The notes beneath the pieces were generated by a model. That model worked only from the letters and a program-made list of their open reading frames with translations. It had not been told where the DNA came from and searched no databases. Below are positions 1 through 62,785 of a stretch of DNA of 64,000 bases, piece after piece (the first letter of the stretch is position 1; every line of letters begins with the position of its first letter). The stretch is from Struthio camelus (taxonomy: Eukaryota; Chordata; Aves; Struthioniformes; Struthionidae), in the NCBI RefSeq assembly GCF_040807025.1, contig NC_090952.1, positions 2,914,001 through 2,978,000 of the forward strand, written 5' to 3'. Both the position numbers and the translations under genes were made by a program.

Positions 1-82
1 GCCCCGGCAGCAGGGGAGGGGAAGCCTGGGGTCTGCGCAGATCCAGGGGGGTTGATCTCTGCTCTGGTCCTTGCTCTTTCAG

Positions 83-288
83 CCCTTGAAACCTTGCAGA
101 AGAGAGCCAGGCCCTCCACTTGTTCGCTGGTGGCCCAAACCATCCTGATCCTGAGAGCTTCAAGGACAAAGTCTCCAGCCAGAGCCAGCCAAGGAACCCT
201 CTCCTCCTGGATCAGGAACAAGTGGCAGAGGTGGCAGCGGCCTCTAAGACACAGCAGCCTTTGCTGCTGCACCTCTGCTCACTTCTGA
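83..288 (+). CDS. Last coding exon (exon 22) of an upstream MROH-like gene copy, partial
   Basis: This is the terminal exon of a gene copy whose other exons lie left of the window. The acceptor is the pyrimidine-rich stretch ending in AG at 81-82, and the exon runs to a TGA at 286-288. It is 206 nt long, like the exon 22 of the three complete copies, and it is entered in the same phase (two bases completing a split codon). It encodes a basic tail with ALETLQKRARP near its start, a tryptophan/arginine cluster (RNKWQRWQRP) and the ending CCCTSAHF. In this family the preceding residues form the last HEAT-like helices, and this tail follows them. It has LSSW where gene copy 1 has LFSW. Its presence shows that the tandem array extends upstream of the window. 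Confidence 0.85.
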
Positions 289-2640
289 GCCTGGCCTGCT
301 CGGCCCATGGCCGCCACCTGAGCGCGCAAGGAACTTTGGGGGCTTCCTGGCCTCTCTGCCGCTGCCAGGCCACCCTGTGCTTGTTAGAGAAGGACATGGT
401 AACTCAGATGGTAACTAGCTTAGCACAAGTCTAACCCTTGCTTAGCACTAGCATCTCAAGTAAACAAAGCCTGCAAGCCTCCAGGCCAAACTGTCAAACT
501 CGAGAATCATTGCTGACCACATAACTCAGCTGAACTGGGAGAACTGAAGAAGAGAGGTCTCCCAGGGGGGCTGAGTCCCTGAGGTGGTTCCTCAAGTAAC
601 TGGGAGTTCCTTGGGAAGAAGTTAAGGGACTCCAAGTTGCCTGAAGAGCCCCCAGAGACTTGAAGAGCCTTAAAGCCTCTCAACCTTGCCTTTAAGGGCA
701 GCAGGGGCAGGCCTCAGCCCAGACCCCCACACTCCCCAGCCTCAGGGCTTTGGTGGGGGGCACCAAAAAGCCCTGCCCAACGGCTGCCCCCACACAAAGC
801 CCTGAGGCCAAGGAGCGCTCGCTGCTCCCTCGTCGCCCCGGCCTTCCCCGCTGCCTCCCGGGCTGGAGCTGGGCTGCCAGGGCCCCTGCTCAAAGAAAGG
901 GCCAACCTGGGGGCGAGGAGAAACAGCCCCTTGGGACAGGAGCTCTCACCTACTGCAGCGAGATGGCCCTGGCTGCCAGTTGCCCCCTCTCCGCTCCAGC
1001 GCTGCAGCCAGGAGCTCTTCCCCGAGCAGGGAGAACGCAGCCTTCGGCAAGCTGCGAGCAGGCGTGAACAGAGACCGCGCACAGAACACAGCACATGGCA
1101 CCTCGCCTCAGCTGGGGCTCGCGCCAAGTTTTATTGCCCAGAGCCCAAACACCTTCGCGCGGTGCCACCGTGCCCGAGTCCCACTTGGCGCTTCCTGGGG
1201 AGCAGGACGAGCTGGCAGGCGCAGGCCGCCTTCCTGCTGCGGCAGCTCCTGGAGGGGTGTGTGAAGGCCAAAGCCGGATTCTTGCTCCTTCGGGTGGCGG
1301 GGGGGGGGGGGGGGTCCTCTGGGAAAGCAGGTCACTTCCTCAGTGCAGCTGGAGTCTGAAGCTGGGGCCCCAAAGAGCTGCGGGAGGGGTGGGCAAGAGA
1401 TGAAAAAGCAGGTCTAGCCAGCAACTAGCACCTAGGAAAACAAAACAGAGCTCTTCAGAAAGAGCAGGACCAGGCACTTTCCCTCTCTCAACACTCGGGC
1501 CCGACCCTGCGTCCCCCTCGGGGAGCAGGCGCTGGGGCTCTGCGCACTGCGGCTCTGCCTTCTGGCCTTCAGCGCATCCACAGAGCACGGCTCCTGCTGA
1601 AAACAGAGCAGAAACGCACACAACTAGTGGCCCCAAATATTAAAAAACAATAATAATAATGAAATAAATAAACCAGAGCCATAGCTTGTCTGGCACCTAC
1701 CAGGCCTCAAAGGTCTCGGAAGGAGCCCAAGCGCCGCTGCTCTCTGCGCGCTGCCAGTGATGGGCAAAACGCCTCTTCCTCCCATACGCAGCTCAGGCCC
1801 ATTTCTCCTCCTCCTTCGTGTGCAAGGCGACAGCGCTGAACACCAAGAGGCCTGCCTTCAGGGAGAAGGCGCCGGCACAGTACAGAAATGCCGAGGGGAC
1901 GCAACGTTCCTACTGCGTGGGCTGCAGGGGACGCCCAGACACCTAGAAAAGGAGAGACCCTCTCTCGAGTCTGGCACTGCACCACAGCACAGCAACAGCA
2001 TCTCTTGCGCACAACTCACACTCCCTCTCCTCTTTAGTGCCCCCTGCTTCCCTAAAAAGGCAAGGGAGCTCCAACAACTCCAAAAAGCAAAGCCAAAGAG
2101 AAGCAAGTCCAAAGTCCTCCAGTCCCTCCTACGCTCCAGTACATTGCAGCCCAGCCAGAGCTGTCCCAGAGAGCCCCTTCCCCTGGCACAAGACATTCCC
2201 ACCGGCCTTACCTGCGGAGAGGAGCCCCGGGGAGCAAAACCCAGTCGGTCATGACCTACTGGGAACTGAAACTCCCCCAGCCCTCTGGCAGCGGGAGCTG
2301 CACGCCCCAGTTGCCCCCTCAGGCAGACAAAGCGGCCACGTTGAACTGACCCAGACAACAGAACCGACAAACACAACCGCAGAAACACAACCGAGCTCTC
2401 AGTGAGCACGTCGGCTCCCAGCGGCCACAAAGGAAGCAGACAGAGATCTTGCAGAGACAGGACACAGCTCCCACTATGCTTCTCAGCTCCCCAGGCAGCT
2501 GAAACCCCAAAACGGCCTCGCCAGTAAAACAGGCTGAAAGCTCTGTACTGACAGACAGACAGACAAGGAAGGACCCCGCACCAGCGCCACAACACGCCGC
2601 GCCACCACCAGGCTCCAGCTGCTCCCACAAGGCTGGGAAC
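289..2640. other. 3' flank between gene copies, unit 1, with convergent poly(A) signals
   Basis: No convincing coding exon. Two overlapping AATAAA hexamers on the plus strand at 1663-1672 could end the transcript of the upstream MROH-like copy, giving a 3' UTR of about 1.4 kb. A run of 15 or more G at about 1300-1313 varies in length between units. Short GACA repeats occur at 2549-2563. Plus-strand open frames here differ in length between units and have no family resemblance. Confidence 0.5.
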
Positions 2641-3280
2641 CAGCCTGCCAACACCCGCACCCGAAGAAAGCCCGAGGAAGGGCGGCAGCCGCGCTGGAAA
2701 CCTGCCGCCCCCGGCAGCGGACGAGCCCCCGGCGGGGCGGGAAGCGCCACCCGGCCGCCTCGGGGCCGCCAGGGAAGCCCCTGCCCGAGCGCTGCCCCCT
2801 CCCCGGCGCTCCGGACAGCCCGGCTGCCGGCTGCCAACGCTCCCTCCTCCGGCGCCGCCCGCAGCCCGCCGGGCACTCGCTGCACGGGCCGGCAAACAGC
2901 GCCCGCAGACACCCAGCGCTCCGCTGCCGGCGCTCGCTCCTCCGCGGCGCCCGCCGGTGCTGCCAGCAGCTCGCGGCCGGCACCATCGCGCACGTCCCGC
3001 TCGGTCCCGCCGCGCTGCCAACGGCGCTGCCACAACCGTTGCGCGTTGCCCAGGCGAGAGCGACCGGCCGCCCCGACCGCCTCCCCGCGCCCGGCCCGGC
3101 CCCCCCGCCGCCCCCGAGCCCCGCCGCGCCACGACCCGCCGCGCGTCCCGCAGCCTGCCGCTCTCCAGCAGCGCCGCGCCACCGCACCACACAGGACGCG
3201 ACGCCACGCGACGCCACGCGACGGGACCCGGCCGCCGCCGCCAGGCGCCACCACACAGCCAGCCACCCCGCCGCCATCTT
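1120..3280 (-). other. Possible minus-strand transcription unit, unit 1 (coding status unknown)
   Basis: Read on the minus strand, an ATG in AAGATGGCGGC context sits at 3277 inside the CpG island. Plausible splice signals follow: a donor GCAG/GTAAGG near 2216, acceptors TTTTTAG near 2053 and TTTTCTAG near 1953, a donor CCTG/GTAGGT near 1700, an acceptor GTTTTCAG near 1597, and a poly(A) signal AATAAA (TTTATT on the plus strand) at 1130-1135. This would make a multi-exon RNA divergent from the CpG island promoter. No exon encodes a protein I recognise, and the very long open frames through the GC-rich part are a composition effect. A noncoding RNA is as likely as a gene. Confidence 0.3.
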
Positions 3281-3785
3281 CGCCGCCGGCCGCTCGCTCC
3301 CCCCCACCCCCGGCCAGAGGCGGGAGCGGGGCGCCAATCAGCGGCGGGCGGCGCGCAGGCGCCCTCCAATGGCCGAGAGGCAGCTGGCCCGGCCGGCCAA
3401 TCCCCGCGGCGGCCCGGGCGGAGGGCGGGAGGGAGCGGAGAGAGGCCGGAGATGGCGTCCGGCGGCCGTGGGCGCCGCCGAGCGGGCGGGCGAGCGGGCG
3501 GGCGGCGGGGCCGGGGCTGCCGGCGCCAGGGACGCGGTCCCCGCTGTCCCCCCTCAGTGTTCCCCTCGCTGTCCCCCCGTCCTCCCGCCCGTCGCCGCCC
3601 GGTCGGCTGTGGCCGGCGGCAGAGGGCAGCGGGGAGGGCAGGCGCCGTGCGCGGGCAGGGCAGGGGCTGCGGGCAGGGCAGGCAGGAAGCGGCGCTGCCT
3701 CGTGTGACCCACGTCGAGGCCCCGCCGAGCTCCTCCCGGCCCGGGTCGCCCCCGACGGGCTCGCCCGGTCCCAGGCCGCTCTCCC
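2650..3785. promoter_or_regulatory. CpG island, likely bidirectional promoter, unit 1
   Basis: A block extremely rich in G+C and in CpG dinucleotides. It has three CCAAT boxes at 3334-3338, 3366-3370 and 3397-3401, a YY1-like CCGCCATCTT at 3271-3280 and, on the other side of the CCAAT cluster, GGAGATGGCG at 3449-3458. This arrangement (CCAAT boxes between divergent start-type motifs, no TATA box) is typical of bidirectional CpG island promoters. On the plus strand it could drive a transcript that continues 5.6 kb to the first MROH-like coding exon at 9080. A 10-bp GCCACGCGAC step near 3205 is repeated once more than in units 2 and 3. Confidence 0.65.
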
Positions 3786-3787
3786 CC

Positions 3788-3940
3788 AGCTCATACAGTC
3801 CTGCCCAGGCTCGTGCGGGCTTGCGCGGCGCTTGCACAGCCCCTCGTCCAGCCCGAGGGGCTCCTACGGCCCCGCACGGGTCTCCACGGGCTTGTGTAGT
3901 CCCGCGCTGAGCTCGGGGGGGCCCGCGCCCGGCTCCACAG
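3788..3940. repeat. Left part of the 30-bp minisatellite, unit 1, cut off by a CR1
   Basis: Degenerate repeats of the same kind as at 5068-5914 (GCTCATACAG, GGCTCGTGCGG, GGGCTCCTACGG). The CR1 at 3941-5067 separates the two parts. Equivalent stretches lie at 24591-24743 and 45328-45480. Confidence 0.7.
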
Positions 3941-5067
3941 AGTCACAGCATGGTTGAGGTTGGCAGGGACCTCTGGAGATCATCTAGTCCAACCCCCCTG
4001 CTCCAGCAGGCTCCTCTAGAGCGTGTTGCCCAGGATCGCATCCAGACGGGTTTTGAATGTCTCCAGCGAAGGAGACGCCACCACCTCTCTGGGCAACCTG
4101 TGCCAGTGCTCACTCACCCTCACAGTCAAGAAGTTTTTCCTCAGGTTCAGGTGGACCTGCCTGTGCTTCAGTTTGTGCCCGTTGCCTCTTGTCCTGTCAC
4201 TGGGCACCACGGAGAAGAGACCCGCCTCATCCTCTTGACACTCCCCCTTCAGATACTTGCACACGTTGATGAGATCGCCTCTCAGTCTTCTCTTCTCCAG
4301 GCTCAACAGGCCCAGCTCTCGCAGCCTTTCTGCAGAGGAGAGATGCTCCAGTCCCCTCATCCTCTTTGTAGCCCTCCGCTGGACTCTCTCCAGTAGTGCC
4401 ATGTCTCTCTTGTCCTGGGGAGCCCACAACTGCACCCAGGACTCCAGGGGAGGCCTCCCCAGGGCTGAGGAGAGGGGCAGGATCACCTCCCTCCACCTGC
4501 TGGCAACACTCTTCCTCAGGCACCCCAGGATCCCATTGGCCTCCTTGGCCACAAGGGCACACTGCTGCCTCATGCTTCACTTGTTGCCCACCAGCACTCC
4601 CAGGTCCTTCTCTGCAGAGCTGCTTGCCAGCAGGTCAACCCCCAGCCTGTCCTGCTGCCTGGGCTTCTTCCTCCCCAGGTGCAGCACCTTGCGCTTGCCT
4701 ATGTTGAACTTCAGGAGGGTCCTCTCCGCCCAGCTCTCCAGCCTGCCCAGGTCCCTCTCAATGGCAGCACAGTCTTCTGGCGCGTCAGCCACTCCCCCCC
4801 AGTTTAGTATCATCAGCAAACTTGCTGAGGGTGCACTCTGTGTCTTCCTCCAGGTCATTGATGAATACATTGAACAAGAGTGGACCCAGGACTGAGCCCT
4901 GGGGGACACCGCTAGCTACAGGCCTCCAACTAGACTCTGCGCCACTGACCACAACCTTCGGAGCTCGGCCATCCAGCCAGTTCTCAGTCCACCTCACTGG
5001 CCACTCATCTAACCCCCACTTCCTGAGTTTACCTGGGAGGATATGATGGGAGACAGTGTCAAAAGCC
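3941..5067 (-). mobile_element. CR1 LINE, 5'-truncated, minus strand, unit 1
   Basis: On the minus strand this reads as the 3' part of a chicken-repeat-1 ORF2. It contains AFDTVSHHI at the truncated 5' side (about 5042-5067), [20 protein letters not shown], the reverse transcriptase box FADDTKL (FADD at about 4809-4820), then the C-terminal region with [17 protein letters not shown] and [11 protein letters not shown]. The 3' end has the bird CR1 signature TTGGACTAGATGATCTCCAG (plus-strand complement at about 3976-3995) and a short CTGTGA-type tail. The coding region is broken into at least three frames, so it is a dead copy. It sits within the minisatellite. Confidence 0.95.
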
Positions 5068-5914
5068 TACGAGTTTCTATGGGCCTGAACAGGGCTCTAC
5101 GGGCCTGTGCTGAGGTCATACGGGCTCACGCCATGCCCTGCAGGCTCATTTGCGTCCATGCCAGGCTCTGCAGGGTCCTACGGGCCCCCACAGGGCTCCA
5201 CGGGCTCGTATGGACCCACGTGGGGCTCTATGGGCTCATCCAGGCCCCCGCTGAGCTGGTGCGGGTCCCTGCCGGGCCCTAGGGGCTCGTGCGGACTTGT
5301 GCTGGGCCCTCCAGGCTCATACAGGCTCGTGCCAAGCTCATACAGGCCTGTGCCGGGCTCTACAGGCTTCTAAGAGCCTGAACGGGGCTCTAGGGGCTTG
5401 TACAGCCCCATGCCGAGCTCACATGGGCTTGTGCCAGGCCCTGCAGGCTTGTATGAGCCCTTGCTGGGCTCTGCGGGCTCATACGGACCCCCACAGGGCT
5501 CCACGGGCTCGTAGGGGCCCATGCCAAGCTCATAGGAGCCCGTGCCAGGCTCTATGGACTTCTATGGGCCTGCACAGGGCTCTGTGGACTCATACAGAGC
5601 TGTTTGGGGCTGTATGGGCTCGTACGCCCCCATGCTGAGCACATATGGGCCCGTGCCGAGCTCTGTGGGCTGGTACGGTCCTGCACAGCGCTCTACGGGC
5701 TCATATGAGCCCACGCCAGGCTCTGCGTGCTTGTGCCAGGCTCTGTGGGCTCGTACTGGCTCACCCTGAGCTTGTACAGGTCCATGCCAGGCCCTGTGGG
5801 CTGGTACGGGCCTGCACTGGGCCCTAGGGACTCCAACGGACTCGTGCTGGGCCCTACGGGCTCATATGGGACCGTTCCGAGTTCGTACGGGCCCGTGCCG
5901 GGCTCTCTGAGCTA
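5068..5914. repeat. 30-bp GC-rich minisatellite, unit 1
   Basis: About 28 degenerate units of 30 bp. Each consists of three 10-bp steps of the type GGCTCTACGG, GCTCATACGG and GCCCGTGCCG. Occasional phase slips of 10 bp show that the 10-mer was the older unit. Frames through it are open for 60-113 codons only because the period is a multiple of three; they are not genes. Confidence 0.85.
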
Positions 5915-7390
5915 GTATCAGTTTGCCGTTATCTTTGCTGCCTTACATCTCCCTTAGGCCTCCTCGTTGCAGTCTTTCTCCTTTCCCTTCCTCCCCTTAG
6001 ACACGTCCTGTGTGGTTTCCAAGACATGTTAACCCCATCTTCTGTGCCCATAACTGAGGCTCTAAAGGAAGGCAGGCAGACAGCAGGAAAAGGCGGCAAA
6101 AGGAAAAGAGCGGCTTTTTGATAGGAAGCCGACAGTCTTAAAACCCATTAGGCTAGTAACTGGGGTGGAGTTATCTCATCGAACTTTAGGAAGCCAAACT
6201 TAAGGTCTGAACTGCTTCTCCGGGCTCCCTCCCTAGGCTGTGGAGAAAAACGGGCCCTTCCAGAGAGCCCTTCACCCAATCGATCCCAGAGAGCGGTGGG
6301 ACTGCAGAAGGACTGCACGTCTCTAGCCGTTATGTCTGCCACCGGAGGAAAATGATAATCCTGTCTGAATGTAGTCTCAGGTGTGCTAGGAGTGTATCAA
6401 AGCATCTGGAAAGGACTCTCGCCACGTGGTGAGCCGAAATCCCGAATTCCAATTGTGACTCTGTGAAATACTGGGGTGCCAGAGGATTTCCTGGAACTGA
6501 GAAAGAGGTAGAAAAGCATGAGCAGACTAGTCAAAGAGATGCCACTTTCCGTTAAAGGAACGGGAGCCTGGAGGAGGGCTCTTCAGGAAGGAAAAGAGAC
6601 AGCTGAGAGAGGTAGGAGAGAGCTGCCTGGAACGAAGTGCTGTGGGAAAGGGGAACAAGGCAAGTCTCGGTGTCCTTCAACAGCAGCTGGAGCTAGGAGG
6701 TGCCATACTGGAAGAGAGAAGAAAAGGAGGTATTCTTTCAGCCCCAAAGGGTTGGAGAATGGAAGCAAATTAAAGGGCATGCTTGATTTGTGGCCACGTG
6801 GAGACAGGAGAGCGAAGTAGAATTGCTGCTCTAACTTGTGCTGTTGTTGTTGGTGGTGCTAGAAACAGATCCCCTCCGGTGAGGCACGGCGACACGAAGA
6901 AGTCATTGCCTAGTGAGGAGAACAACAGCTTCTTTGACTACTCCCTCAAGAAAAACATAAAATAAACACACTCCTTGTCTTGGTGTGTTTGCTTCGAGCC
7001 TAATTAGGAATAGTAGAAAAAAAATGACATCACATTCCCCAAGAAAAAACACTGGTATTTACTGCATTTGTTCCTTTAATGATTGGAGATGGGGGGGGGG
7101 GTCTTATTTAGGCTGTGTATTGGCTTTGGTACATCAGGAAAACGGGAGACCAAGCTGACCAAACAGTGTGTGTCCACTTGGCACGTTGTGAATAGCTCTC
7201 GAGATAACACTGACCTTAATGACTATGTCCCTAGTGAATAGAAAAGGGCACCTGCTCACATGCGGTTTTACACACGCACCCCCGCACCCCCCCCCCCAAA
7301 TTAAGATGTAACTCTTAAATCCTATCCTAGGGGATCATCTTAATTATCTGCATGGCAGACAGCTACAGTTATTTTGGATGCCTTAGTGCA
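5915..7390. other. AT-richer island of unknown origin, unit 1
   Basis: Composition changes sharply from the GC-rich minisatellite to ordinary or AT-rich DNA with poly-A stretches. It holds a plus-strand poly(A) signal AATAAA at 6961-6966, a G run at about 7089-7099 and a C run at about 7291-7299. The longest open frames (about 100 codons, 6518-6820) are the same in all three units but show no domain I know. It could be the tail of an old element or of a lost gene; nothing decides this. Confidence 0.45.
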
Positions 7391-8340
7391 TCATAGTGAG
7401 TGGGGTACCCCAGGGGTCGATACTGGCTTCGATCCTGTTCAAGTTGTTCCTCAGAAACTTGGCTGAAGGGACAGCGTGCGCCCTCAGCGAGTTTGCGGCT
7501 GTTCTGAACTGGGCGGTATGGTTGCAACCCTGGAGGGTTGTAGCGCCGTTCGGTGGGAGCTCGACAGGCTGGAGAGATGGGCAGAGGGGAAGCTCATGAA
7601 GTTCAAGCCAAGGAAAGGCAGAGTCCTGCCCTGCAGGAGAAACACCCTGGTGCAGCAGTACAGGCTGGGGAGTGAGGTGCTGGGAGGGCAGGTGGCCAGC
7701 AAGTTGCGCACGAGGCAGCAACGTGCCCTTGTGGCCAAGGCGGCCAACGATCTCCCGGGCTGCAGTAGGCAAAGCACTGGCAGCAGGTGGAGGGCGGTCA
7801 TCCTCTCCCTCTCCTCAGCCCTGGTGAGGCCTCGCCTGGAGTCCCGGGTGCAGGGGTGGGCTCCCCAATACAAGAGAGACATGGAGCTAGTGCAGTGAGT
7901 GCAGCTGAGGGTTCCTCAGATGCTGAAGGGATGGGGGCATAGGAGGAAAGGCTGCGAGAGCTGGGCCTGTTCAGCGTGGAGAAGAGAAGACTGGGGAGGG
8001 GGGGAGGATCTGACCAATGGGTAGAAATATCTGAAGGGAGGGTGTCAAGAGGATGGGGCCAGAGCCTTGTCAGAGGGGCCCACTGACAGGAGGAGAGGCA
8101 GTGAGCACAAACTGAAGCATAGGCAGGTCCGGCCGAACACGAGGACAAACGTCTTTGCTGTGGGAGTGACGGAGCGCTGGAACAGGCTGCCCAGCGAGGT
8201 CGTGCAGTCCCCATCCATGGGCATAGTCAAAAGGCATCTGGCTAGGGTGCTGGGCAACCCGCTCTAGGTGACCCCTCTGGATTGGACTAGATGACCTCCA
8301 GAGGTCCCTTCCAACCTCCACCGCTCTGTGAGTCTGTGAC
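7391..8340 (+). mobile_element. CR1 LINE remnant, plus strand, unit 1
   Basis: Starts in the reverse transcriptase region with SGVPQGSILASILF (about 7399-7440), soon followed by LSEFAAVLNWAV where an active CR1 has the FADDTKL box, so the catalytic motif has decayed. It continues with the C-terminal part (RQQRALVAKAANDLPGCSRQ, ERWNRLPSEVV) to the CR1 3' end at 8281-8340, with GGATTGGACTAGATGACCTC and a short TCTGTGA tail. Broken into several frames. It belongs to a different, more diverged insertion than the minus-strand CR1. Confidence 0.92.
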
Positions 8341-9079
8341 CAGAGCCCCATGGAGGCGCAGCGGCAGACAGAGGTGGCCGAGGGGCAGGCAGCCGTGCGG
8401 GCCTGAAGGGATGTGCCCTGCCCCTCCCTAGGGCGGCGGGTCACAGCAGGGTCCTTTGTGACCCCATGACACCCCATGGTGTTGTTGGGCACCACTATGG
8501 CATGAGCAAGGCAGTGTCCGGGAGGATGGCAACAGGAAAGGAAGGAGCACGCAGGGCTGCTGAAGGAGCCCTTGAGCGCGCGATGTCTTTCCCTGTCACC
8601 CCGGGCAGCCCCGCAGTGCGAGGCGTTTCCCCAAGGCACCCCCAGCTCAGACCTGGGTAAGAGGGCTGGGGCTGGGGCTGAGCAGCTCCCCAGGGCCTCA
8701 AGGGGGCCCTTGGCCATGGCCATGGCCAGGAGAGGAAGGAGCAGGCAGGGTGATGGGGTGGGGCTGGAGCTAAGGTGCAGGAGAGCTGGCACCAGGGCCC
8801 AGCACACCTGCAGCGGGCAGGGGGACGCCAATGTCCCGCAGGGAACCACCCTCTGCTGGTGGGGTTAGCGAAAGGTTTTCCTTCCAAGAACATCTTGGCA
8901 AAGCCTGCGGGCATTTTCCAAATGACACCTTTTGCATGGAAAAGCCACAGCCGTGGGCTCGGCCTTCTCCAGCCAGGCTGTCTGCTAAGCCCAGGGGGAC
9001 AGTGCAACTGTTTCCAGGTGCCAGGCCCGGCCTTAGGCTGCTCCATTCCCAACCTCCCCCTTTTCTTCCTCCCTGCAGG
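8341..9079 (+). promoter_or_regulatory. 5' flank of gene copy 1, possible noncoding 5' exon
   Basis: Sequence between the CR1 3' end and the first coding exon. A good donor (ACCTGG/GTAAGA) at 8656/8657 and the acceptor CTTCCTCCCTGCAG ending at 9078 frame a 422-bp intron, so a noncoding leader exon may end at 8656. Joining at this site does not put the ATG at 8572 in frame with the main protein; the first usable in-frame ATG is 9080. No TATA box was found. Confidence 0.45.
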
Positions 9080-9830
9080 ATGGAGAGGAGACCTCCCAGG
9101 CACCCCCGGGTGGCCTGGGAGAAGAAGGATGGCTCCGTCAGCCGCCCTAGGGTGGCTTTGAAGGAGAAGAAGGATGGCTCCATCAGCTGCCCTAGAGCAG
9201 CTTTGAAGGAGAAGGAGGAGGATGGACCCCCCAGGCACCCCAGGGTGGCCTGGGAGAAGAAGGATGGCTCCGTCAGCCGCCCTAGGGCAGCTTTGAAGGA
9301 GAAGGAGGAGGATGGACCCCCCAGGCACCCCAGGGTGGCCTGGGAGAAGAAGGATGGCTCCGTCAGCTGCCCTAGGGCAGCTTTGAAGGAGAAGGATGGA
9401 CCCCCCAGGCACCCCAGGGTGGCCTGGGAGAAGGAAAAGGAGGATGGCTCCGTCAGCTGCCCTGAGGTGGCTTTGAAGGAGGAAGATAGATCCCCCAGGC
9501 TCCCAAGGGTGGCCTGGGAGGAGGATGAGAAGGATGGCTCCGTCAGCTGCCCTAGGGTGTCTTTGAAGGAGGAGGAGGAGGATGGACCTCCCAGGCACCC
9601 AAAGGAAGCCTTGGAGGAGGAGGAGGAGGAGGATGGAGGCCCTTCAGAGAGCCACCCCATGAGGGCCTCGGAAGAGGAGGAGGAGGAGGAGGAGGAGGAG
9701 GAGGACGAAGACGAGGAGGAGGAGGAGGAGGAGGAGGGTGGACACTCCACCTCCACCAGGGTTGCCTGGGAGGAGGAGGAGGAGGAGGATGGAGGCCCTT
9801 CAGGGAGCAGCTCGCAGCCGGAGCAGTGCT
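9080..9830 (+). repeat. Coding repeat in exon 1 of copy 1 (45/90-bp units, then poly-Glu)
   Basis: The exon is a tandem array whose 90-bp unit codes for two related half-units, DGPPRHPRVAWEKK and DGSVSCPRAALKEKEE. Both halves share the frame D-G-x(4-5)-P-R-x-A-x-x-x-E/K, so the basic unit is about 15 residues (45 bp). Downstream units drift to Glu-rich forms and end in an uninterrupted run of GAG codons with a few GAC/GAA (about 9671-9735). The peptide is highly charged and should be disordered. Confidence 0.85.
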
Positions 9831-50625: not shown

Positions 50626-51370
50626 ATGGAGAGGAGACCTCCCAGGCACCCCCGGGTGGCCTGGGAGAAGGATGGCTCCGTCAGCCGCCCTAGGGTGGCT
50701 TTGAAGGAGAAGAAGGATGGCTCCATCAGCTGCCCTAGAGCAGCTTTGAAGGAGAAGGAGGAGGATGGACCCCCCAGGCACCCCAGGGTGGCCTGGGAGA
50801 AGAAGGATGGCTCCGTCAGCCACCCTAGGGCGGCTTTGAAGGAGAAGGAGGAGGATGGACCCCCCAGGCACCCCAGGGTGGCCTGGGAGAAGAAGGATGG
50901 CTCCGTCAGCTGCCCTAGGGCAGCTTTGAAGGAGAAGGATGGACCCCCCAGGCACCCCAGGGTGGCCTGGGAGAAGGAAAAGGAGGATGGCTCCGTCAGC
51001 TGCCCTGAGGTGGCTTTGAAGGAGGAAGATAGATCCCCCAGGCTCCCAAGGGTGGCCTGGGAGGAGGATGAGAAGGATGGCTCCCTCAGCTGCCCTAGGG
51101 TGTCTTTGAAGGAGGAGGAGGAGGATGGACCTCCCAGGCACCCAAAGGAAGCCTTGGAGGAGGAGGAGGAGGAGGACGGAGGCCCTTCAGAGAGCCACCC
51201 CATGAGGGCCTCGGAAGAGGAGGAAGAGGAAGAGGAGGAGGAGGACGAAGACGAGGAGGAGGAGGAGGAGGAGGAGGGTGGACCCTCCACCTCCACCAGG
51301 GTTGCCTGGGAGGAGGAGGAGGAGGAGGATGGAGGCCCTTCAGGGAGCAGCTCGCAGCCGGAGCAGTGCT
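50626..51370 (+). repeat. Coding repeat in exon 1 of copy 3
   Basis: Two codons shorter than in the other copies. A Lys codon is missing in the first half-unit (AWEKDGSVS), another difference lies in the GAG tract (about 51210-51280), which is also interrupted by GAA codons. One SRPRAA unit reads SHPRAA. Confidence 0.85.
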
Positions 51371-54300
51371 TGCCCCAGCCATTGCAGCCAGGTGAGCGAG
51401 TGGGCACCCCTGGGCTGGGCAGGACCGGGGGCTGCGAGCGCACCCGGCAGGCTGGCATGCGGGGTCCCCAGGAGCCTGGTGGCCCGGCGGTGCCTGAATG
51501 CCGGGGCCTGCTCTGAGCTTGGGAGCCAGCCCCCAGGAGCGCATCCCCCCCAGGGGGCCGGGGGGCGGTGGAGAGGAGCAAAGGGGACACAGCTCCTGCT
51601 CCACGGCCCAGGCAGGGGCAGGCAGCTCGGCTGGCGGGAGACAGAGCTTTGCAGCCTGCGCGCGAGCAGGTTTCTCAAGGGGACGCGCTTGGGGCTTTCC
51701 CCCGTGGGCTGGGCTCCAGCCTCGCCGCCTGCCTGCTGGGCACCTCCTGGACAGGCCTCAACTGGTTCCTGTCTGCTGCCAGCCCCGACAGCTCTGCCCA
51801 CTCTCTTTCTTGGTCACATCTAGGGCAGCTTCTGCCAGGAGAGGAGGAAGCCCTGGGAAGCATGCGCACCTTTCTGCGAAGCGGAGGCAAGGTAACGGCA
51901 GGCACTTGTGCCTGGGCTGTGCCTGCATCTCCCGGTGGGCGGCCCCTGCACGTGCAACGCTCAGGCGGCCCCGCAAGGGCTGCTGGCTGTGCAGAGCTGC
52001 TCCCGTACGGGCACGCCACGCACCGCTGCGTGGCCGCAAACGCTCCGGTGCTGCTGCCCATGCCTCTGGCGCACTTACGCTCTCCGTCTCTCTCCTGCTG
52101 CTGCCAGGGAGAGGCCGAGAAGCTGCAGTTTCTGGCCGACGTCTGCATCCTCTGCAGAGGCGCCAGCACGGATGTCTTGCTGCGGGTCCTGCTTTTCCTG
52201 TGCAGGGTGGATCTGGCAAAGGCAATCGAGGTGAGGGCGCAGGCCGGGGCCTGGGGGAGTGGGCAAGCCTAGCCGGGCACTGGCACACCAGGGAGGCCAG
52301 GACTGGGGTGCGTGAGCGTGGGAAGGTGGGGAGCCCTTGCTCGTGAGCGCAGCGCTGCCCACTGCAGGGCTCCAGAAGCCACCGAGAGCGGGGCAACGAG
52401 GGGGCTGCCCTGGGTGCCAGCGCTGGGGTGCGACGGGGGCACCTGGGCTCTGCCAGCCTGGCAGGCTCCTCGCTGGCTGCTGACAGCTCCCACGCCGCGT
52501 CCTCGCTGCGCTCTCCAGGTGCTGTTGCGAGAGGAGCCCGTGGAGCAGCTGAGCACTGCGGTGCGGCAGCAAGCCTTCCTCGCCATCGCTGCAATGAGGT
52601 AGCTGCCCCAGCCCCTGCCTTGCTCAAGGCCTCCACAGCCTACGGACCTGACGGCACCAGCTGCAGCTGGGCGGCATCTCCCGTTCGGGGGGAGTCTGAG
52701 CGAGGCGTCTGCGGGGCCTCTGCTCTCCCCTGCACGGGCCTTGACAGTGCTGGAGACGGGAGGGCAGAGAGGGCCCCGGAGCCCTGTCCAGTGTCTCCGG
52801 ACTTTGCTCACGAAGGCTGAGGCAGGAGCTGCAGAGGGTATCGGGCACATGCTGCCGGACCGTCCTCTGTCCCTGGGCCAGCATCACAGGAGGAAGAGGC
52901 GCCTCCCCAGGGGCCTCCCCACCTCGCTCCCCTAGCAGCATAGGCTCTGCCGCCCACCAGCTCTGGAGGTGCCACCGTCAGCCCCCGGCTCTGAGCAGCG
53001 CCTCTCCCTCCTTGCAGCAAAGCGAAGCTGGTGCTAGATCGCAACCAGCAGACAAGCCTCCTCCAGTCCTGCTTCTGCGCGGTCTTCTTCCTTCCTCCGA
53101 CAGAGCACATGCAGAGCCTGCAGGCTGCCCTCTACTCCAAGGTACGCCCTGGCCGAGGGCTGCAGAGCCCGACAGTCCCCCTGGGCTGGTCCCCGGCTGC
53201 TCTGTGCCGAGAGATGAACGCAAGCTCCAAGCCAGAGCAGCACTGCAGCGTGGCTTTCCCACCCTCGTGCCTTTTCCCCCTTGCCCTGGCGATGGCCCCG
53301 CGTAGTGTCGCCGAGCTGGTCCTCGTGCGGCAGCTCCTCTGCCCTAAGCCTCTCCCTGGGCACCGCAGGGCCCTGGGTGTCCCCCTCAGGCTGCAGGGAT
53401 TCAAGCCCCTCTCCTGCAGGCAGGGGGCTCCAGGGAAGAAGTGCCACAAGCCTCTGTCTTCCTTGCAGACGCTGGCTGCCCTGGACAGCATGCTGCAGGC
53501 GCTGGTGCTCACATGTCTCTCGCCTGCTCTCCTGGAGCTGCAGAACATCCTGCAGGTGTGGCATTTAGGCAAAGAGTGGCCTTCACAGGGACTGTTTCTC
53601 ACCCCAAAACAAAGGGACTCTCTGGAGGGGACCTCCCTCTGCTCGGCCCCGCAGCGCTAGGGGCAGAGAGCATGCCGCAGGGAGAGGAGCGTCTCCCTCG
53701 GGGGAGCGAGGCTTCCCCACCGTGCTCTTCTGCAAGCCCAGGGTCTCCTGGCTGCAGTCAAGAGTCCTTTCTTGCCCACCCGACTCCTGCAGTGGAAGGC
53801 AAAGCCCTAACCCCTGGCCCTCCGCGACAGGAGGGCCCAGCGGGCCCTTTCTGGCAAGCAGCAGAGGCTGCAGGAGCCACGGGAGCCTGCTGCCTGCCCG
53901 GCTCCAGCCGCTCAGCCGAGGGGACTTGTCCCTAGTTTGGGGGGACTCGCAAGGCAAGAACCCACTTACGGGCTTTGCTCCTGCTCCCAGGAGCTGAAGG
54001 GCAAAGCCGAGCAGGCATCAGCAGAGCTGCCTCGCTTGCAGCAGCTGGCAGGTCACCGCGCAGACCAGCAGCTTTTCTCCTCCCAGGTCCTGCTGCCCTT
54101 CCTCCGGTCCAAGCAAGCAGCCACGCGCCAGAGGGCTGTGGGGCGCATTGCCGAGCTCACGCAGCTCCTGGTCATCCCTCCCTTGCTCAAGGTAAGCCGC
54201 CTCAGGACCAGGCAACCTCCAGGCGCCCCATCACCCCTCCATGGTGCTCCGGAGCCTTCTGCAGCTCCGCGCTGCCTCCAAGGGAAGCCTGGCTACAAGG

Positions 54301-57300
54301 TAGGGCACCCAGCAAGGCCCTGCCCCGAAGCTATGCTCTTGGCCATGCCTCGGTGGGCTTCCTCCTGCAGGCCCTGCTCTCTCAGACGCCACCTCTGCTC
54401 GCAGCCCTGGGCAGGGCAGCACTGCCCTGGGCACACGCTGTGGGCCCAACAGCTCTGGCAGCCCTCCCTGCCCAGCCCCTTTGGTAGGCCCTCCACAGCT
54501 CCCGCTCACCTGCGGTCCAGTCACGGCTTAAACGTGGCCTCGGGGCTTTGGTGGCAAGCAGCACCCTTCAGCCCTGCCTCCCTCCCCCAGGTCCGCTCGC
54601 CCTTGGAAGGAAGCAGTGACGGCCCTGACGACTGCAGGAGGAAGCAGTTCTCCATCCTGGGTGGGCTGGTGGGACACGTCATCCTGTGCTGTGCCTGCCA
54701 GGACCAAGGCACCAGTCACGGAGCTGCAGAAGCTCTTCACCACCTGTACACGTTCATCCTACAGGAAGAAAGTAAGAGAAGCGGCCGCAGGCTGAGTCCT
54801 CCCACACACGCACAGAGCCAGGCAAGGGCAGGCAAGACACCGTGCTGCCTCAGCCGCTCTCCGCAGCAGCAGCAAAGAGCCAGAAACTCCTGCCTTGTAG
54901 GCGCAGGGCAAGCACTGCGTAAAGGCCAGGGCCCACAGAGGCCAGGCTCAGCGTAGCGGGCCCGTAAGCAGGAGGCCACGGGGGATGTGATCTGCAGCCA
55001 GCTCTCTGGGGAGAGAGGGGGCATGCACACACTACTTAATAAGCAGCAGCCACCTCCTAGACTTCACGCAGGGCCGTCAGCTGCCTTGCTGGAATCCCTC
55101 GCCCGCTTACCAACGGGCTGGAAAACCTTCAGCAGCCCCTGCTCCTCTTAGGGCTTCTGTCTCGCTTCCTACTAGAACGGCTGCTCAAACGCCTCTGCCT
55201 CGTGGTAGTCTTAAAAGCCGTTTCCCCTCCCACCTGCCTTGCGATAGGCCCAGGACTTCCCTGGAAAGCCTGCTCCCCATCCATTTCTGGCACGCCTGCT
55301 TTCTCTGCCAGCAACGTTTCTCGCTGAGGCCTGCAGGGTACCACCTCTGAGTCACCATCCTCCCTCCTAATTGCCCTGTGTCTCCCCTCCTGTCCAGGCA
55401 TGGGGCTGTCCCAGGATAGCCCAAAGCACCTGCAGATCCAAAAGGACAGGGAAGAGGCAAAAAGCCGCCTTTCGCCGCCCAACAACGTTAGGGAAATCAC
55501 CGCGGTAAGGAGCGCCTCCGTTGCTGGGACTGCCGGCCGTGGGGTCAGCACGATGCTCAGATGAACAGAGGGACCCTTTGACAGGGGGACTAACGGGTGC
55601 TTGCCGTCATCGGGCAGGGGGCTCACCTTGTTCTTGAGCATGGACTAGCCACAAGTTTGTGGCCTGGCCCCCTCCCCCCCCCCCACCAGAGCTCTGCTTC
55701 CCCACAGGAGCAGCAGAGGGGCACCCTGAGCCCAACCGCCCACTTCCGGCCTGGGGCCATCACCCAGCCCAGCTCAACCCCTGCTCCTGGCTCTCCTGGC
55801 AGCACAGAGGCAGCACTGCCACACGTTTCTCTCCAGAGCCGCGCTCACTGCTCAGCTGGGCAGCAGCCAGCAGCACGAGGGCACTGCGTGTGATGCATCT
55901 CTCTTCCCTGCCTCCTTTGTCCTCTAGATGTTTGCAAAATACCTCCAGGCCTCGGAGAGAGCAGATCTCATTGTCGTAGCCATCAGGGCCATGAGCTGCT
56001 CCAGTGCCTTTGTCACACAGGCAGCCGCTCACATGCTGGATGTGCTGGTGACAGAGGACGCCTCTCAGCTGAAGCACGTAAGTCGCCTGCGGCTGGCATG
56101 GCTGGGGCTCGAGCCCTGCAGGGCATTGTTTTCCCTCTGAACGCAGGTCTCCCCCCTAGGCACCTAAGAGCCTTTGAGGCCAGCACGGAGCAGTGGGAAG
56201 GGAAGCAGTTGTCGGTGGGAGCTGGAGAAATGCCTCCCTCCATGCCATGTCCCCTGCAGGTGGCCAACATCATGAGGTGCATCTGCAGCTGCCTGATGGC
56301 CATCAAAGAGGTGTCTGCCCGGCACAGCGTGAACAGGGCTCTTCTGGAGCTGACCTGCGCATACCCTCACGAGGCAGTCGTGAGCCTCTTGCACTGTTCG
56401 CCGACATGCAACAGGTACGGGGCTCAGCTGCCTGCAGGGCTCAGGGCCCAGCAGCCTTGGGAGCTCATGCCATGGGGGCTACCAGAGAGGTGGAGATCTC
56501 CAGGACCCCCGCTGAGGGACTGGCCCCAGTGCTGGTGCATGAGGCAGGGCTGCAGCAGGCAGAGGTGATCAGGCCTGCCTGGAGCGCTGCTCGAGTGAGC
56601 CGCAGAGCCTGGCTGCCTTGGTGCCTGCCTGCGCCATAAGGAACTGCAGCTCGGCCACGTGCTGCTGGTGGGGCAGGGCGCGCTGGCTGTTGCTAGCAAA
56701 GGGCAGTGGGCAGAGGCAGGGCTGGTGGCCAGCCTGGGCCCTCCAGGGTAGCCAGGCCACGGCGCGCCCAAGGCAGCCTGCTGACAGAGCGCTCGGGGCC
56801 TACAGCGCTGCCAAGGCCATGTGGCGGGTGATGGTCTCGGAGCCCGGCGCTGCAGAGAAGGTGCTGCCCCAACTACTGAGGCTGCTGGAGGACTCTGGGA
56901 CCCAGGCTGCTGGACCACTGGGCAAGACATCCGCCTTCATCGGGAACAACGCGGGCATCCTTTCGTGGGCTGTGAGTTTCCAGGCGAGGCCTCCATCACC
57001 TTCAGGGCTGCGCTTGCCTCCCCAGGCAAGAGGCAGCGCTCCCTTTCGCCCTCCCCATCTGCCCCCCAAGATGTCACCTCCCACAGGGCACACACACCTC
57101 AGGGCCATGGCCAGCAGGGCTCTGCCCAGCGTCTAGCCTCTGCTGGGCCAGTGCACTGGGCTGCCGAGCACCGCCTGGAGCCCTGCGCGCACAAGCTCGG
57201 GGCCTGCCTGGGCAGCTCTCTGGCCTCCTGGGTCTCTGCATCTCCTGGCCTTCCTCAGCAGGCTGGAAGCTTGTGCTAGGGGCAGGCTTAGCGGTTGGGA

Positions 57301-60300
57301 CAGGGTTCAGGGCCAGGCAGGGCCCACGCACAGCCCAAGCAGGCTGCAAGGGCTGACACAGGAGATAACGCGAGAGCCGCCCCCCTCCCCCCCCCGGCCC
57401 AGGTTGATGTCCATGCCCACGCAGGAAGGCTCGATGGGCCCATGCCACAAACAGGAGCTGAGCCTCAAGAGCTTCCATGACTTAGCCCTGCCCAGACAGC
57501 CAGGCCGCGCGCACACCGCGCTGCATCTGCTGGGGCACAGGGCAGCGCCTGAGCCTCACGCCCCAAGCTCGGCCAGGGCAACACCGTCTCACCACTGACA
57601 ACCGTCTCTTGGGTGTTTGTTGCAGGCAACCAGGGCGCTGCACGAGATTCTCCATCAGCCCCTCTGCCCCCAGGAGGTGAAGCTCTTTTTCCCCCAACTC
57701 CTCCTGGCACTGCTCTTCCGCATTTCCCTCGCTCTCGAGATGATGCCAGAGGAGGTTGCTGTCTTCTGGGGGCAATGCCAACAGCATCAGGCTGCTGCCT
57801 CCAGCCCCACCAGGTACTGCCTCCCACTTCCCCCACCTCTGCCCTGCACCTGGAGCCAAGGCCAGGGCTCCCAGGGTGACCTGGCCTTTTCTCTGCGGGC
57901 AGGTGCGCAGCAGAGGCCATGAAAGCACTGCTCTGCTGGGCCAACTACAAGAGCCAAGTGCTTGCCCTGGAGAGCAAGGGCGCCTGGGACATGCTCCTCA
58001 CTGCCGCCACCCACCACTGCGGAGTGGCTTTGCTGGCCATGTGAGAGCCCCCTTCTCCCCGCTCTCCCCTAGCCCTTCTCCCCACTGATGGGACGCCCTA
58101 CACAACCCCCTTCCTCGTGGCTGACAGGCCGGCCCCAGCTCTCCACAAAGGAGCTGCACTCTCAGCCCTTGTCACTGAGGGATGGCACAGGGGAACGGCA
58201 AAGGGCTGGGTGTGGATTCGGGGGGTGGTCTCGCTCTGTCGCTGCCCAGCTCTGAGAGCTCCTCTCCTGGAGGAGAGCTGGTGTTACCAGGCACAAAAGA
58301 GGGTGATGCACAGCAGCAGTCGCCTCCCCCACCCCCACCAAGGGCAGCCCAGCAGGGAAGGGGCAGGAGGCACAGGGGAACACTGCAAGAGCCCGGGGGG
58401 TGGGGGCACGGGGCAGGACTCCACAGTGCGCAGGACATGGGCTGTGCTGCAAGGCAGACTTCAGGGCAGGAAGGGAGCTTCTCCAGCCTCCTCCACCAAA
58501 ACGAGCCTCCTCCTGTTGGACACTGCCTTTCTAATGGCAAGCTGGGGTGGCAAGACACCACACCTCCAGGAGCAAATGCTGCTGCCTGCTGGAGCTGAGC
58601 ACAAACATGGCCTCACCCTGCCTGGCCTGTGGGAGAACACCTAGACTGGGCAGTGCCATGCCACAAGAGGTTGGCCTGCCCTGCTCAAGGCCAACACTAC
58701 CTTCTTCCCCCTGCCAGAGAGATGAGGAAGGCCCCCAGGCCCCAGCGTGCCTACATCTTCCACCACCTGCTAGAGCTGCTCAGCAGGGAGAAGCCCTCCC
58801 ATGAGATCCCTGCTATGGCTTTCCTCGTCGAGGTGAGCTCAGCAGCCAGCGCTGCATCTCTGGGGTGCCTCAAACCACTCTGCTCTCTTGTGCCCACCAC
58901 TGCACCGTGGGTGGCAATGAATGGAGCGGGGTGGTGGGTGCACTCCGAGCAGTACCTCGGTCCATTTCTGGTGGGGGAACGCTTGCCACTACCTGTCTTT
59001 CCTATCTATCTGCTTTGTGCCTGCTCTCCCTACTCAACTGCTCCTCAGAGGCATGACAGTAAGAGGCTGCAGCTGGTGGCCAGGCCTGGAGGAACAAGCG
59101 AGCTAGCTGCACAGCGTGCCCTGAGGCACAGGACAGGGCCACAGGGGCTCTCCCAACCACTGCTGCCTTGCCCGGGTCTGGTGGCCTTGCCCTCAGCTGG
59201 TGGTTGGATCCAGCACTGCAGGATATGGGGAGTCCTGCAGCTTTGTCAGTCTGCCACTGCTGTGTGTGTTTCAGCTGCTGGGCTGTGCTGACCTCAGGGG
59301 AGAGGACCATCACATCCTGAACCTCTTCCTGAGATACCTGCAAAGCCAGAGCTCAGTGATGCGCAGGCTGGTGTTCAGGGGCCTCCTCAGGCTGTGGGAG
59401 AGACCTGAGATGGTGAGCGAGCGGGGACAGCCAGCTGAAGCCATGCCAGAGGCCTGGGGCTGGGTAGGAGGGGCTGGGTAACTCCGTAGCTTACAACTCA
59501 GGAGCTGTCCTCTTCCTCTGCCCACTTTGGGAGTCCTTTGGGACAGGGCCCTGGCTCTGCTGCACAAGGAGAAAGGCACCGGTGCCGGCAGCAGACCCAG
59601 ACCCTGGCCCTGCACCAAGCAAGCCACCTCCAAACCACCTCAGTCACGAGAATGCTGTGCTGAAGGAAGTTGCCGCCTTTCCCACAGGCAAGGAAAATGC
59701 AGGCCCTCTTGCCAGCCCTCATGGAGAGCCTGCAGGACGCAGACAGGGACATCCGCGAGAAGGCCCTAGCTCTGCTCAGCCGCATGATCCATCTCCTGGA
59801 CGGGCAGAGGGCCAGCCTCATCGTTCCGCAGCTGGCTGAGAAACTCTTGCCACTCTTCGATGATGTAAGGCTCGGGGGAGAGTCGGGCGCCCGCTGGACG
59901 CTGGGTCCCCCAGGATCTGATGCGGATGGCCAGCCCAGGCTGCTCCAGCCACATTGAGCCCCTTGCCCATCGTGGTTTTGGAGCAGCCAGGGCTGAGCTC
60001 CTCTCCTCTTCCTTCCCACCAGGAGTCCGGCTGCGTCAGAAACCTCTCCATCAACCTCCTGAAAGATATGATGACAATGGTAGCGGGCACCACAAGAAAA
60101 CTGATGAGGAAGCAAGTGCAGAGGAGCCTGCTCCTCCTCTTCTTCCACTTGCACGACCAGGTCCAGAGCGTGGCCCAGGTGTGGATTTCTGACCTGACCA
60201 GTCATTGCGGGAGGGCAATGCTGACCCCCTCCCCACCTTGGCTGGGCCTCAGCATCAAGAGCAAAGGCTGCCAGCAGTCGCTCCCTTTGAATGGGTGTTA

Positions 60301-62548
60301 CCTTGAGGCCCAACCTCCGGAGGCCCTGAGGAGGGCACAGAGCCTCCTCCCTGTCTCTACCAAGCCACCCACTGCACTGCCTTCATCCTCCTGCCATGCC
60401 TCTTCCTGCACAGATGCACAGAGAGCTGAGGTCCCCTCACAGCCCCACTCCCTCCCTACAGCCCTCCACCAGTGCGGGCCATAGCAAGAGCCCCGGCAGG
60501 CCCAGAGCTAGCAGGGGCTGAGCAGCTGGCCATTTCCCAGAGCTCCTCCACCTGCTCCAACAAGGCTCGGCAGCCATCCATGGCCAAAACAGCCTAAGCA
60601 CTCGAGGCCCCACAGGTTTCCCAGCTGTCCCTGCAGGAGTCAAAAAAACAGGGTTATGCTCTCCCCATCACGGCCCTCCTCCCCTCCTGCCCCACCACAC
60701 TCTGCCCAGGGGACACCCAGGTAGAGGGGCGCAGCATGTCTAAGGCATGACCACCACAGCAACAGAGTTCACCCTACCCATGGCCAGGGCACTTGGCCCC
60801 TGCAGAGGGGCGCAGCACCCTCAAGGGGTTGCGAGAGCCAGCACGTTGCCCAGCCTCCCCCAGCCTGGGGAGGGCAGAGACACACAGACTTGCAATCAGG
60901 GCAGAGGACCAGCCCTGCATCTGGAGCCTGGCCACAAGGCAACAGCAACCGAGCAGGACAGGGAGCCCAGCACCCTGCTGGGAAGCCCCAGGGGAGGCTC
61001 TTCTGCCCGAGTCCTGCACTGCCGTCTCTGGGACTGCAGCACTTCAGCCTCCTCCTGGCTTGGCTACAGCTCAGCACCTCTTGGCCATCTCTGTCCTGCT
61101 GCCCTGGCAGCATGTGGCGCCCGAGATGGTGGTTGCCTCACATCTCTGCCTGGGGCACTGAACCCAGTGGCAGACTTGGTGCCCAGCTGCAGCATCTTCC
61201 CACCACGGGCTAAGAAAGGCTCTGAGCCTCACCACAAGGACGGGGGCACAGGATCTCCTCCCCTGGGCCACGGTGGCATCTCCCACTCTCTGCTGCTGTG
61301 CAGGCCTCGCAGGAAGCCCTCCTGGGCGCTGCCAAGTTCCTGAAATGGCAGCAGCTCACCTACCTCACCGAGACAGGACAGACAAGGCGCATCAGCGAGT
61401 ACCTGGTAAGCACAGCCCCAAAGCACCCAGCCTGCATAAGGCCTGGGCCCCTCCAGGCCCGAGCTGTGCCCCTCACTCACCTCTGGCATGCTCAAGCAAC
61501 TCCAGCCCACCTGGCACCTCATCATCCCTGGGCAGCACCGGGGCCTCTGCTCCCTCCAAACCCGAGCGCTACGCGCCTCCTGGCCGGGCACCGTGAACGC
61601 CCTGGCAGGCGATGGAAGGGGAGACTGCTCCTAGGTGGAGGTGCTGGCCAGCTGAGGGGGGAGGCTCTGCACCAACCCTTGTGCTCTCCCCAGCTGGCAA
61701 AGGAGAACAACAGAGCAGAATACCTGCGCCAGAGCCTGCGCTACCTGCAGAGCCCGCAGGAGCCCTTGCAAGAGGAAGCCGTGAGGTTCCTTGGTGAGCC
61801 ACAACCCCTCCGGGGGTCCCTCTCTGTCCCAGGGCAGCTTGGCCCCAGCCCTGGCTTTTGGGCTGGCAGCCACAAAAGCCAGGCCAGCAGGGCTGGGAAG
61901 GAGCTCTGCTGCTGGCAGTGCGCTGGGGAGCAGGATTTGTGACAGGCTGTGTGTGCCTAGGGCTCATTGGACGGCAGATGAGGGAGCAGGATGAGGAGGA
62001 ACTGCAGCACATTTGCAAGGGTGAGTGAGGGCAGTGGCAGGTCAGCCAGGGCTGACGGGGAGGAAGACACACCCTGGGCAGTGAGCACCAATCCCCACTC
62101 CCTGGCAAGCAGGGCTCTGCTCCCCCCTCACGCAGCAGGGGCCTTGTGGGGAGAGGAGAGAGACTTCAGGGGCCCTTGGGACATTCCTGGCCAGACACTT
62201 GCTGCTGAGCCATTTGTCCCCCCGCTTCCTCCTGGCCATGGGAAGAGCTAGGTGGGACTAGCCCCGGCAGCAGGGGAGGGGAAGCCTGGGGTCTGCGCAG
62301 ATCCAGGGGGGTTGATCTCTGCTCTGGTCCTTGCTCTTTCAGCCCTTGAAACCTTGCAGAAGAGAGCCAGGCCCTCCACTTGTTCGCTGGTGGCCCAAAC
62401 CATCCTGATCCTGAGAGCTTCAAGGACAAAGTCTCCAGCCAGAGCCAGCCAAGGAACCCTCTCCTCCTGGATCAGGAACAAGTGGCAGAGGTGGCAGCGG
62501 CCTCTAAGACACAGCAGCCTTTGCTGCTGCACCTCTGCTCACTTCTGA
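50626..62548 (+). CDS. Maestro/HEAT-repeat (MROH-like) protein, copy 3, 22 coding exons
   Basis: Coding exons: 50626-51391, 51824-51891, 52108-52230, 52519-52598, 53018-53141, 53469-53555, 53991-54191, 54591-54771, 55398-55504, 55928-56077, 56260-56414, 56806-56971, 57626-57813, 57903-58040, 58718-58832, 59275-59412, 59688-59864, 60023-60178, 61304-61405, 61694-61793, 61961-62020, 62343-62548. Only exon 1 differs in length (766 nt rather than 772), giving 1195 residues and keeping phase. Distinctive residues are KEVSARHS in exon 11 and a shortened VAWEKDGSVS repeat in exon 1. It shares RGAS, NNVRE and AAAHM with copy 1 but LPQLL and LSRM/LFDD with copy 2. It is the last gene of the array: the duplicated sequence ends 237 bp after its stop, so its 3' flank differs from that of the other copies. 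Confidence 0.88.
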
Positions 62549-62785
62549 GCCTGGCCTGCTCGGCCCATGGCCGCCACCTGAGCGCGCAAGGAACTTTGGG
62601 GGCTTCCTGGCCTCTCTGCCGCTGCCAGGCCACCCTGTGCTTGTTAGAGAAGGACATGGTAACTCAGATGGTAACTAGCTTAGCACAAGTCTAACCCTTG
62701 CTTAGCACTAGCATCTCAAGTAAACAAAGCCTGCAAGCCTCCAGGCCAAACTGTCAAACTCGAGAATCAGTGCTGACCACATAAC
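62261..62785 (+). repeat. Partial unit 4, right end of the tandem array
   Basis: Matches the start of each unit (the last intron, exon 22 and 237 bp of 3' flank) up to the word ending ACCACATAAC. After this the sequence no longer resembles the other units. This is the right breakpoint of the duplicated array in this window. Confidence 0.93.

Follow-up and report, generated by a model that had tools for sequence, protein, structure and literature searches.

Megabase satellite is normally gene-poor. Among the described systems closest to the locus reported here, the macrosatellites D4Z4 and RS447 are built of long tandem units with a coding frame in each, and the chicken Z amplicon is an ampliconic gene family with gene conversion. 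The locus lies in a 64-kb stretch of ostrich DNA, analysed as a whole and referred to below as the window (C11:2,914,001-2,978,000; host assembly 1.45 Gb). Like human D4Z4 and RS447, macrosatellites with an open reading frame per unit (PMC3018141), it consists of long tandem coding units with little divergence; it differs from them in that the unit is a whole spliced 20.7-kb gene with only four in tandem, and in that the copies on contig C5 mostly lie tens to hundreds of kilobases apart, with satellite between them where sampled. Ampliconic families such as avian HINTW (PMC3167187) likewise comprise many near-identical copies kept alike by exchange, whereas the copies studied here, set against HINTW and the chicken Z amplicon, are on C5 and C11, which are probably autosomes, and are mixed with satellite. 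Chicken acrocentric centromeres carry arrays of the 41-bp CNM repeat over 0.2-0.8 Mb (PMC9974502), and for this reason a centromeric location of the satellite domain on C11 is plausible from its sequence. The two are likened by period and size: both have diverged ~40-bp monomers and higher-order patterns, and the CNM arrays are near the 0.6-0.9 Mb of the C11 domain in size (PMC9974502), but the ostrich satellite has a 20/40-bp period, holds gene islands and extends over ~9 Mb on C5.

The gene itself resembles the MROH2B-like group of the MROH family in being a multi-exon HEAT-repeat gene with PF21047 and PF23210, and departs from that group in its ~75 copies in satellite islands, its upstream acidic repeat exon and a PF23227 score below cut-off. 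MROH1 is among the genes with copies on the germline-restricted chromosome of the blue tit (PMC10172847), and MROH2B is grouped with spermatogenesis genes in penguins (PMC11371425). By word search, MROH was absent from the main texts of the papers on the complete chicken genome and on the Silkie/Mallard and duck genomes (PMC9974502, PMC11745021, PMC7787181). Among the titles listed by open-access literature searches, which for several of them were the top papers only, none concerned bird MROH arrays, most subscription papers being outside their scope.

The tandem array and its MROH-like gene

Self-BLAST of the window, with rows below 400 bp dropped, revealed self-similarity far above chance level. 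Identities were 98.9% over 21.7 kb between window positions 20,355-42,020 and 41,113-62,785, 99.1% between 2,531-20,320 and 44,078-61,875, 98.9% between 2,531-20,320 and 23,345-41,110, 97.7% between 1-2,531 and 41,496-43,999, and 99.8% between 1-525 and 62,261-62,785, so that the near-identical tandem 20.7-kb units proposed in the initial annotation are borne out at 97.7-99.8% between units. The self-comparison of the window and its left neighbour, which that annotation had put forward as a check, returned four head-to-tail blocks. With 110 kb of neighbouring sequence included (alignments below 300 bp dropped), the full array was placed at C11:2,893,817-2,976,785 and comprises four blocks of 20.71-20.77 kb each (Table 1), the phase being set to begin near window position 526 and the block number being that of the assembly. 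The four units are 97.7-99.1% alike, the left part of block 1 being 96% alike, and as head-to-tail units longer than 1 kb at near identity they give the C11 array the structure of a macrosatellite. Three complete units and two partial ends had been annotated; the three whole units and the left partial one (525 bp) stood, but on the right the array stops cleanly at a block boundary. The array does continue left of the window as annotated, but by one block only (20.2 kb, to C11:2,893,817), and an array running far left was rejected on that ground. Unit position 907/908 is the site of both outer array ends and of all three block-block joins, with at most 2 bp of common sequence at the join. Open frames of the block also contain what we take to be CR1-like reverse-transcriptase remnants.

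Table 1. Positions of array blocks, gene features and flank within the 64-kb window.
Feature	Window positions	Strand	Evidence or remark
Block 1, final 525 bp	1..525	+	remainder left of window, C11:2,893,817-2,914,000
Block 2, whole 20.7-kb unit	526..21260	+	self-BLAST and neighbour comparison
Block 3, whole 20.76-kb unit, used as reference	21261..42018	+	self-BLAST and neighbour comparison
CpG-rich stretch, block 3, candidate promoter region	23261..25260	.	GC and CpG o/e
Candidate first coding exon with in-frame minisatellite (acidic, Pro/Glu-rich)	29859..30631	+	open in 4/4 blocks
Other exons, MROH-like gene of block 3	31205..41255	+	PF21047, PF23210
Block 4, whole; closes the array on the right	42019..62785	+	neighbour comparison
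Right flank, first part (flank ~15.4 kb, from array to 20/40-bp satellite at C11:2,992,164)	62786..64000	.	

Exon pieces and Pfam profiles identified one MROH-like gene per 20.7-kb block. On exons joined at approximate junctions, HEAT_Maestro (PF21047) scored 112.7 bits (cut-off 27.4, E=3.1e-32) and HEAT_Maestro_2 (PF23210) 44.6 bits (cut-off 27, E=8.7e-12), and single exons too passed the curated Pfam cut-off, which places the gene in the MROH family and agrees with its earlier designation as MROH-like, both profiles being above cut-off. The MROH2B-like C-terminal model PF23227 reached 17.1 bits with a cut-off of 27, and the exon model may miss some 3′ exons. The 15 firm exon blocks of block 3, 1,950 bp in total, span window positions 32,709-41,254; AG and GT candidates lie beside each of 14 of these pieces, the 15th having been placed separately, and splice signals make four additional upstream exons plausible. 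The annotated count of 22 exons was not reproduced by these 15 firm and four plausible exons. A provisional 17-exon chain that includes the four upstream exons, one of which holds the minisatellite, yields a 1,172-aa product; the chain breaks at three exon pieces, all absent from this product, and two of these belong to the firm 15. The annotated minisatellite is present in an open frame, and at window 29.9-30.4 kb it stays in frame as an acidic repeat in all four blocks. Within the CpG-rich stretch, which was assessed in block 3 only and precedes the first coding exon there by ~5 kb, the first kilobase has a GC content of 0.76 and a CpG o/e of 0.98, and the second 0.69 and 0.69. A 692-aa antisense open frame at window 22,588-24,666 overlaps this stretch and is probably a composition effect, and a 111-bp tandem repeat occupies window 26,248-26,489 inside a long open frame that precedes the gene. 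Comparison over the full coding sequence was limited to five copies (the four blocks and one copy on C198), and 650 codons were free of any stop or gap in all five.

Copies across the genome and their satellite setting

A 60-bp exon pattern, searched with up to three mismatches, occurred at 74 places and was confined to four contigs (C5, 64; C11, 7; C198, 2; C56, 1); 70 of these matches were identical to the pattern and four carried one change. When a 59-aa exon was searched as protein, 75 of the 150 matches scored among 834 candidates were 92-100% identical (C5, 64; C11, 7; C198, 3; C56, 1), and every one of these 75 was full length and without a stop. In the 60-bp search the third C198 copy was probably truncated by the start of the contig. 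Gene probes indicated that copies are 97-100% alike. That the C5 matches of a first 1-kb probe reflect a transposon only was rejected, since gene-derived probes match the same regions. The C5 copies lie between 5.91 and 14.85 Mb (~9 Mb) at a median spacing of 122 kb and fall into five same-strand runs of 2, 15, 25, 16 and 6. C11 carries four gene-bearing islands, of which the window array, with four tandem copies, is one. The unplaced contig C198 (91.6 kb) holds three gene copies 34.07 kb apart, and no satellite was found in the 15 kb read from it.

On C11 the array is flanked by a satellite with a 20-bp monomer and a 40-bp dimer, at C11:2,874,140-2,887,722 and 2,992,164-3,034,587, the left extent being a minimum because 2,874,140 is the left limit of the stretch read. 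The left flank, from satellite to block, measures 6.09 kb both at the window array and at the island at 3.04 Mb, and both flanks hold a 31-bp satellite of equal length (2,137 bp). The ~15.4-kb right flank, which separates the block end from the 20/40-bp satellite, is common to the 2.45- and 3.04-Mb islands (98.8% and 99.1% in 2.5-kb samples over the block end), and the left flank is common to the 2.78- and 3.04-Mb islands (96.7% over 1.5 kb and 95% over 8.2 kb, matches that each include ~0.2 kb of block); the check covered the right flank only at the 2.45-Mb island and the left flank only at the 2.78-Mb island. The 3.04-Mb island consists of left flank, block and right flank with one exon match, and the window island of four blocks within the same flanks. 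Six of ten further samples were satellite (C5 at 8.40, 11.38 and 13.03 Mb; C11 at 2.50, 2.60 and 2.70 Mb) and the other four were not (C5 at 7.19 and 7.20 Mb; C11 at 2.30 and 3.20 Mb). In the C5 region one 10-kb, two 4-kb and five 2-kb stretches were read, and two of the five 2-kb samples were not satellite.

One satellite 40-mer had 856 exact matches, and its reversed control had 0. Among the 100 matches listed, all were on C5 at 5.88-6.46 Mb, and because match lists run in contig order, C1-C4 are probably without this 40-mer; a 60-mer of the satellite consensus had two exact matches only, both on C5. Between the 40-mer matches listed for C5 5.88-6.46 Mb, four satellite gaps of 42.5-47.0 kb hold one gene copy each and one 131-kb gap holds two, and the gene strand equals that of the neighbouring satellite in all six cases; satellite samples on C5 and C11 also agree in strand with the nearest gene copies. 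From these gaps and samples we infer that the C5 copies may form islands of ~42-47 kb in satellite. CpG o/e was 0.80-0.85 in three satellite stretches vs 0.14-0.52 in 19 of 21 1-kb windows of block 3. At C5:6.20-6.40 Mb, the satellite 40-mer repeats every ~2 kb, pointing to a higher-order repeat.

Other MROH groups were also encountered. PF21047 gave 2,134 first-look candidates, and the 150 scored fell on C41 (98), C4 (13), C10 (11), C1 (9), C11 (6), C3 (5), C2 (3), C171 (2) and C32, C19 and C25 (one each). Those on C41, C10 and C3 are regularly spaced at 13.6, 48.8 and 22.9 kb, which points, at the level of profile matches, to further MROH arrays; with the matches so spread and further arrays indicated, MROH growth looks like a genome-wide habit of which the window is one example. 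Fetched stretches of C1, C2, C3, C4 and C10 gave no clear alignment to the window's gene, and these places are therefore counted only as PF21047 matches. The 98 scored matches on C41 belong to an array of another MROH-like gene at 5.1-7.54 Mb with a 13.6-kb unit. The exons of the window's gene are colinear with the gene of this array at roughly 34-55% protein identity, in an alignment that also yields many chance and low-complexity matches and in which some C41 exons are gapped or carry a stop. Of the five DM-domain matches found, C41 has three in close proximity, one of them partial, and C8 has two; since this fits the bird DMRT layout, in which we take the DMRT1-3-2 group to be Z-linked and DMRTA2 and DMRTB1 to be on chromosome 8, C41 is probably the Z and contig numbering probably mirrors that of the chromosomes. 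The other 75 of the 150 matches scored for the 59-aa exon are relatives, 74 at 58% and one, on C6, at 54%. The 58% matches, on C19, C20, C23, C24, C28, C29, C49, C100, C132, C165, C175, C232 and C240, form a third MROH group on 13 contigs, with near-identical scores and many units ~30-34 kb apart; on C23 and C24 it lies within 0.3 Mb of the contig start.

Signs of exchange between copies and of constraint on the coding sequence

Across the six block pairs, divergence is 0.36-0.65% in non-exon sequence within the gene and 0.21-0.41% in exons, and the non-exon values uphold the recent tandem growth of a whole MROH-like gene that had been annotated. In two intervals of the block (0-1 and 4-6 kb), block 1 is 2.7-3.6% divergent from blocks 2-4 but 0.2-0.5% from the 3.04-Mb island; in the remaining intervals its distance to blocks 2-4 is 0-1.6%. 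Between 8 and 10 kb a single site in 2,000 separates blocks 1 and 2, and both are ~1% from blocks 3 and 4. In the first kilobase, the 2.45-Mb copy differs from blocks 2 and 3 at 6/990 and 5/985 sites and from block 1 at 30/991. Block 1 is a mosaic, with segments in common with an island 150 kb away, and that the array is a single clade of copies was rejected, since block 1 in part clusters with the 3.04-Mb island instead. Such a pattern is expected where blocks and islands have exchanged sequence by unequal crossing-over and gene conversion. Near-identical open copies, together with the sign of gene conversion in block 1, are features of an ampliconic family. Exchange is or was active, because non-exon divergence between blocks within the gene is as low as 0.36-0.65% and block 1 combines stretches resembling its neighbours with others resembling a distant island. 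Copy number change as an active process at this locus, as first annotated, holds to that extent, but the array has only four blocks and is one of four C11 islands, and most of the family (64 copies) is on C5. Copy-number variation between individuals is plausible.

Constraint was assessed by comparing the blocks with a copy on C198. In the four comparisons, divergence was 1.3-1.4% in exons and 2.7-2.9% in non-exon sequence, with pS of 0.024-0.030 and pN of 0.009-0.011. For block 3 the values were 1.44% in exons vs 2.83% outside them (Fisher p=3.6e-4) and pN of 0.0108 vs pS of 0.026 (p=0.024), with 0 gap columns in 1,950 bp of exon and 319 in non-exon sequence. Within the array the counts are too low for constraint to be shown: pN exceeded pS in two of six block pairs, and no significant exon deficit relative to non-exon sequence was seen between blocks 3 and 4 (p=0.37).

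Origin of the array and its meaning

The window is, with good probability, an island of an amplified MROH-like gene family living among satellite DNA, which grew by unequal crossing-over and gene conversion. The first tandem duplication would have arisen by joining two points separated by one block length, which have no more than 2 bp in common, and later growth and homogenisation would have proceeded via unequal crossing-over and gene conversion, both between blocks and between islands. Satellite and gene may have been amplified jointly on C5, with exchange between satellite arrays then carrying them to C11, or in the opposite direction. Selection would keep the protein, so that the likely effect would be more dosage of the predicted MROH HEAT-repeat protein, perhaps in the germ line.

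The most substantial competitor to this reading is that the copies are functionless passengers of satellite amplification, their frames open only because copying was recent. Their place among satellite, their 97-100% likeness in probes and the non-significant constraint inside the array fit this view, and open frames do partly reflect recent copying because the 75 copies are not independent. It is nevertheless rather improbable given the C11-C198 comparison, with fewer exon than intron changes and zero exon gaps, the 59-aa exon open in 75 of 75 close matches, the 60-bp exon unchanged in 70 of 74 copies, and the CpG-rich stretch kept upstream of the gene in block 3. Assembly error, in which the four blocks would be false duplications of one block (unpurged haplotypes or a misjoined repeat graph), appears unlikely. 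Blocks that are only ~0.4-1% apart along much of the unit might be alleles, satellite-rich DNA is difficult to assemble, and false duplications are reported for bird assemblies (PMC9516828); however, the three joins are identical and head-to-tail, duplicated haplotigs would repeat the flanks too, left parts of block 1 are ~3% from the other blocks, blocks carry private differences, the gene is present ~70 more times elsewhere with differences of its own, and the flanks are in common at single-copy islands.

A mobile origin, in which the 20.7-kb block would be a mobile element or be carried by one rather than a segmental duplication, could draw on the one left boundary common to the C11 copies and on the CR1-like remnants inside the block, terminal repeats having been inspected over 60-80 bp at each block boundary. 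We consider it very improbable: the sampled C11 islands have sequence in common outside the block as well, which makes the copied unit longer than the block itself, and no insertion into unrelated sites was seen among them; the introns are kept, which argues against retroposition, and the exon pattern occurs only on C5, C11, C56 and C198. Beyond the preferred reading of an island grown by crossing-over and conversion, there is a slim chance that the MROH copies are a functional, selected part of a (peri)centromeric satellite domain on chromosomes 5 and 11, with about one island per 0.1 Mb in co-orientation; their product or transcription would then influence the domain, for example in meiosis, and gene and satellite would have spread together, either selfishly or as co-adapted partners.

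In this genome ~75 copies of a large spliced gene, with open frames at every place examined, lie among satellite, mostly on two chromosomes. The system is a natural test of gene survival in satellite, of how blocks stay alike within and between chromosomes, and of whether dosage or conflict drives MROH growth.
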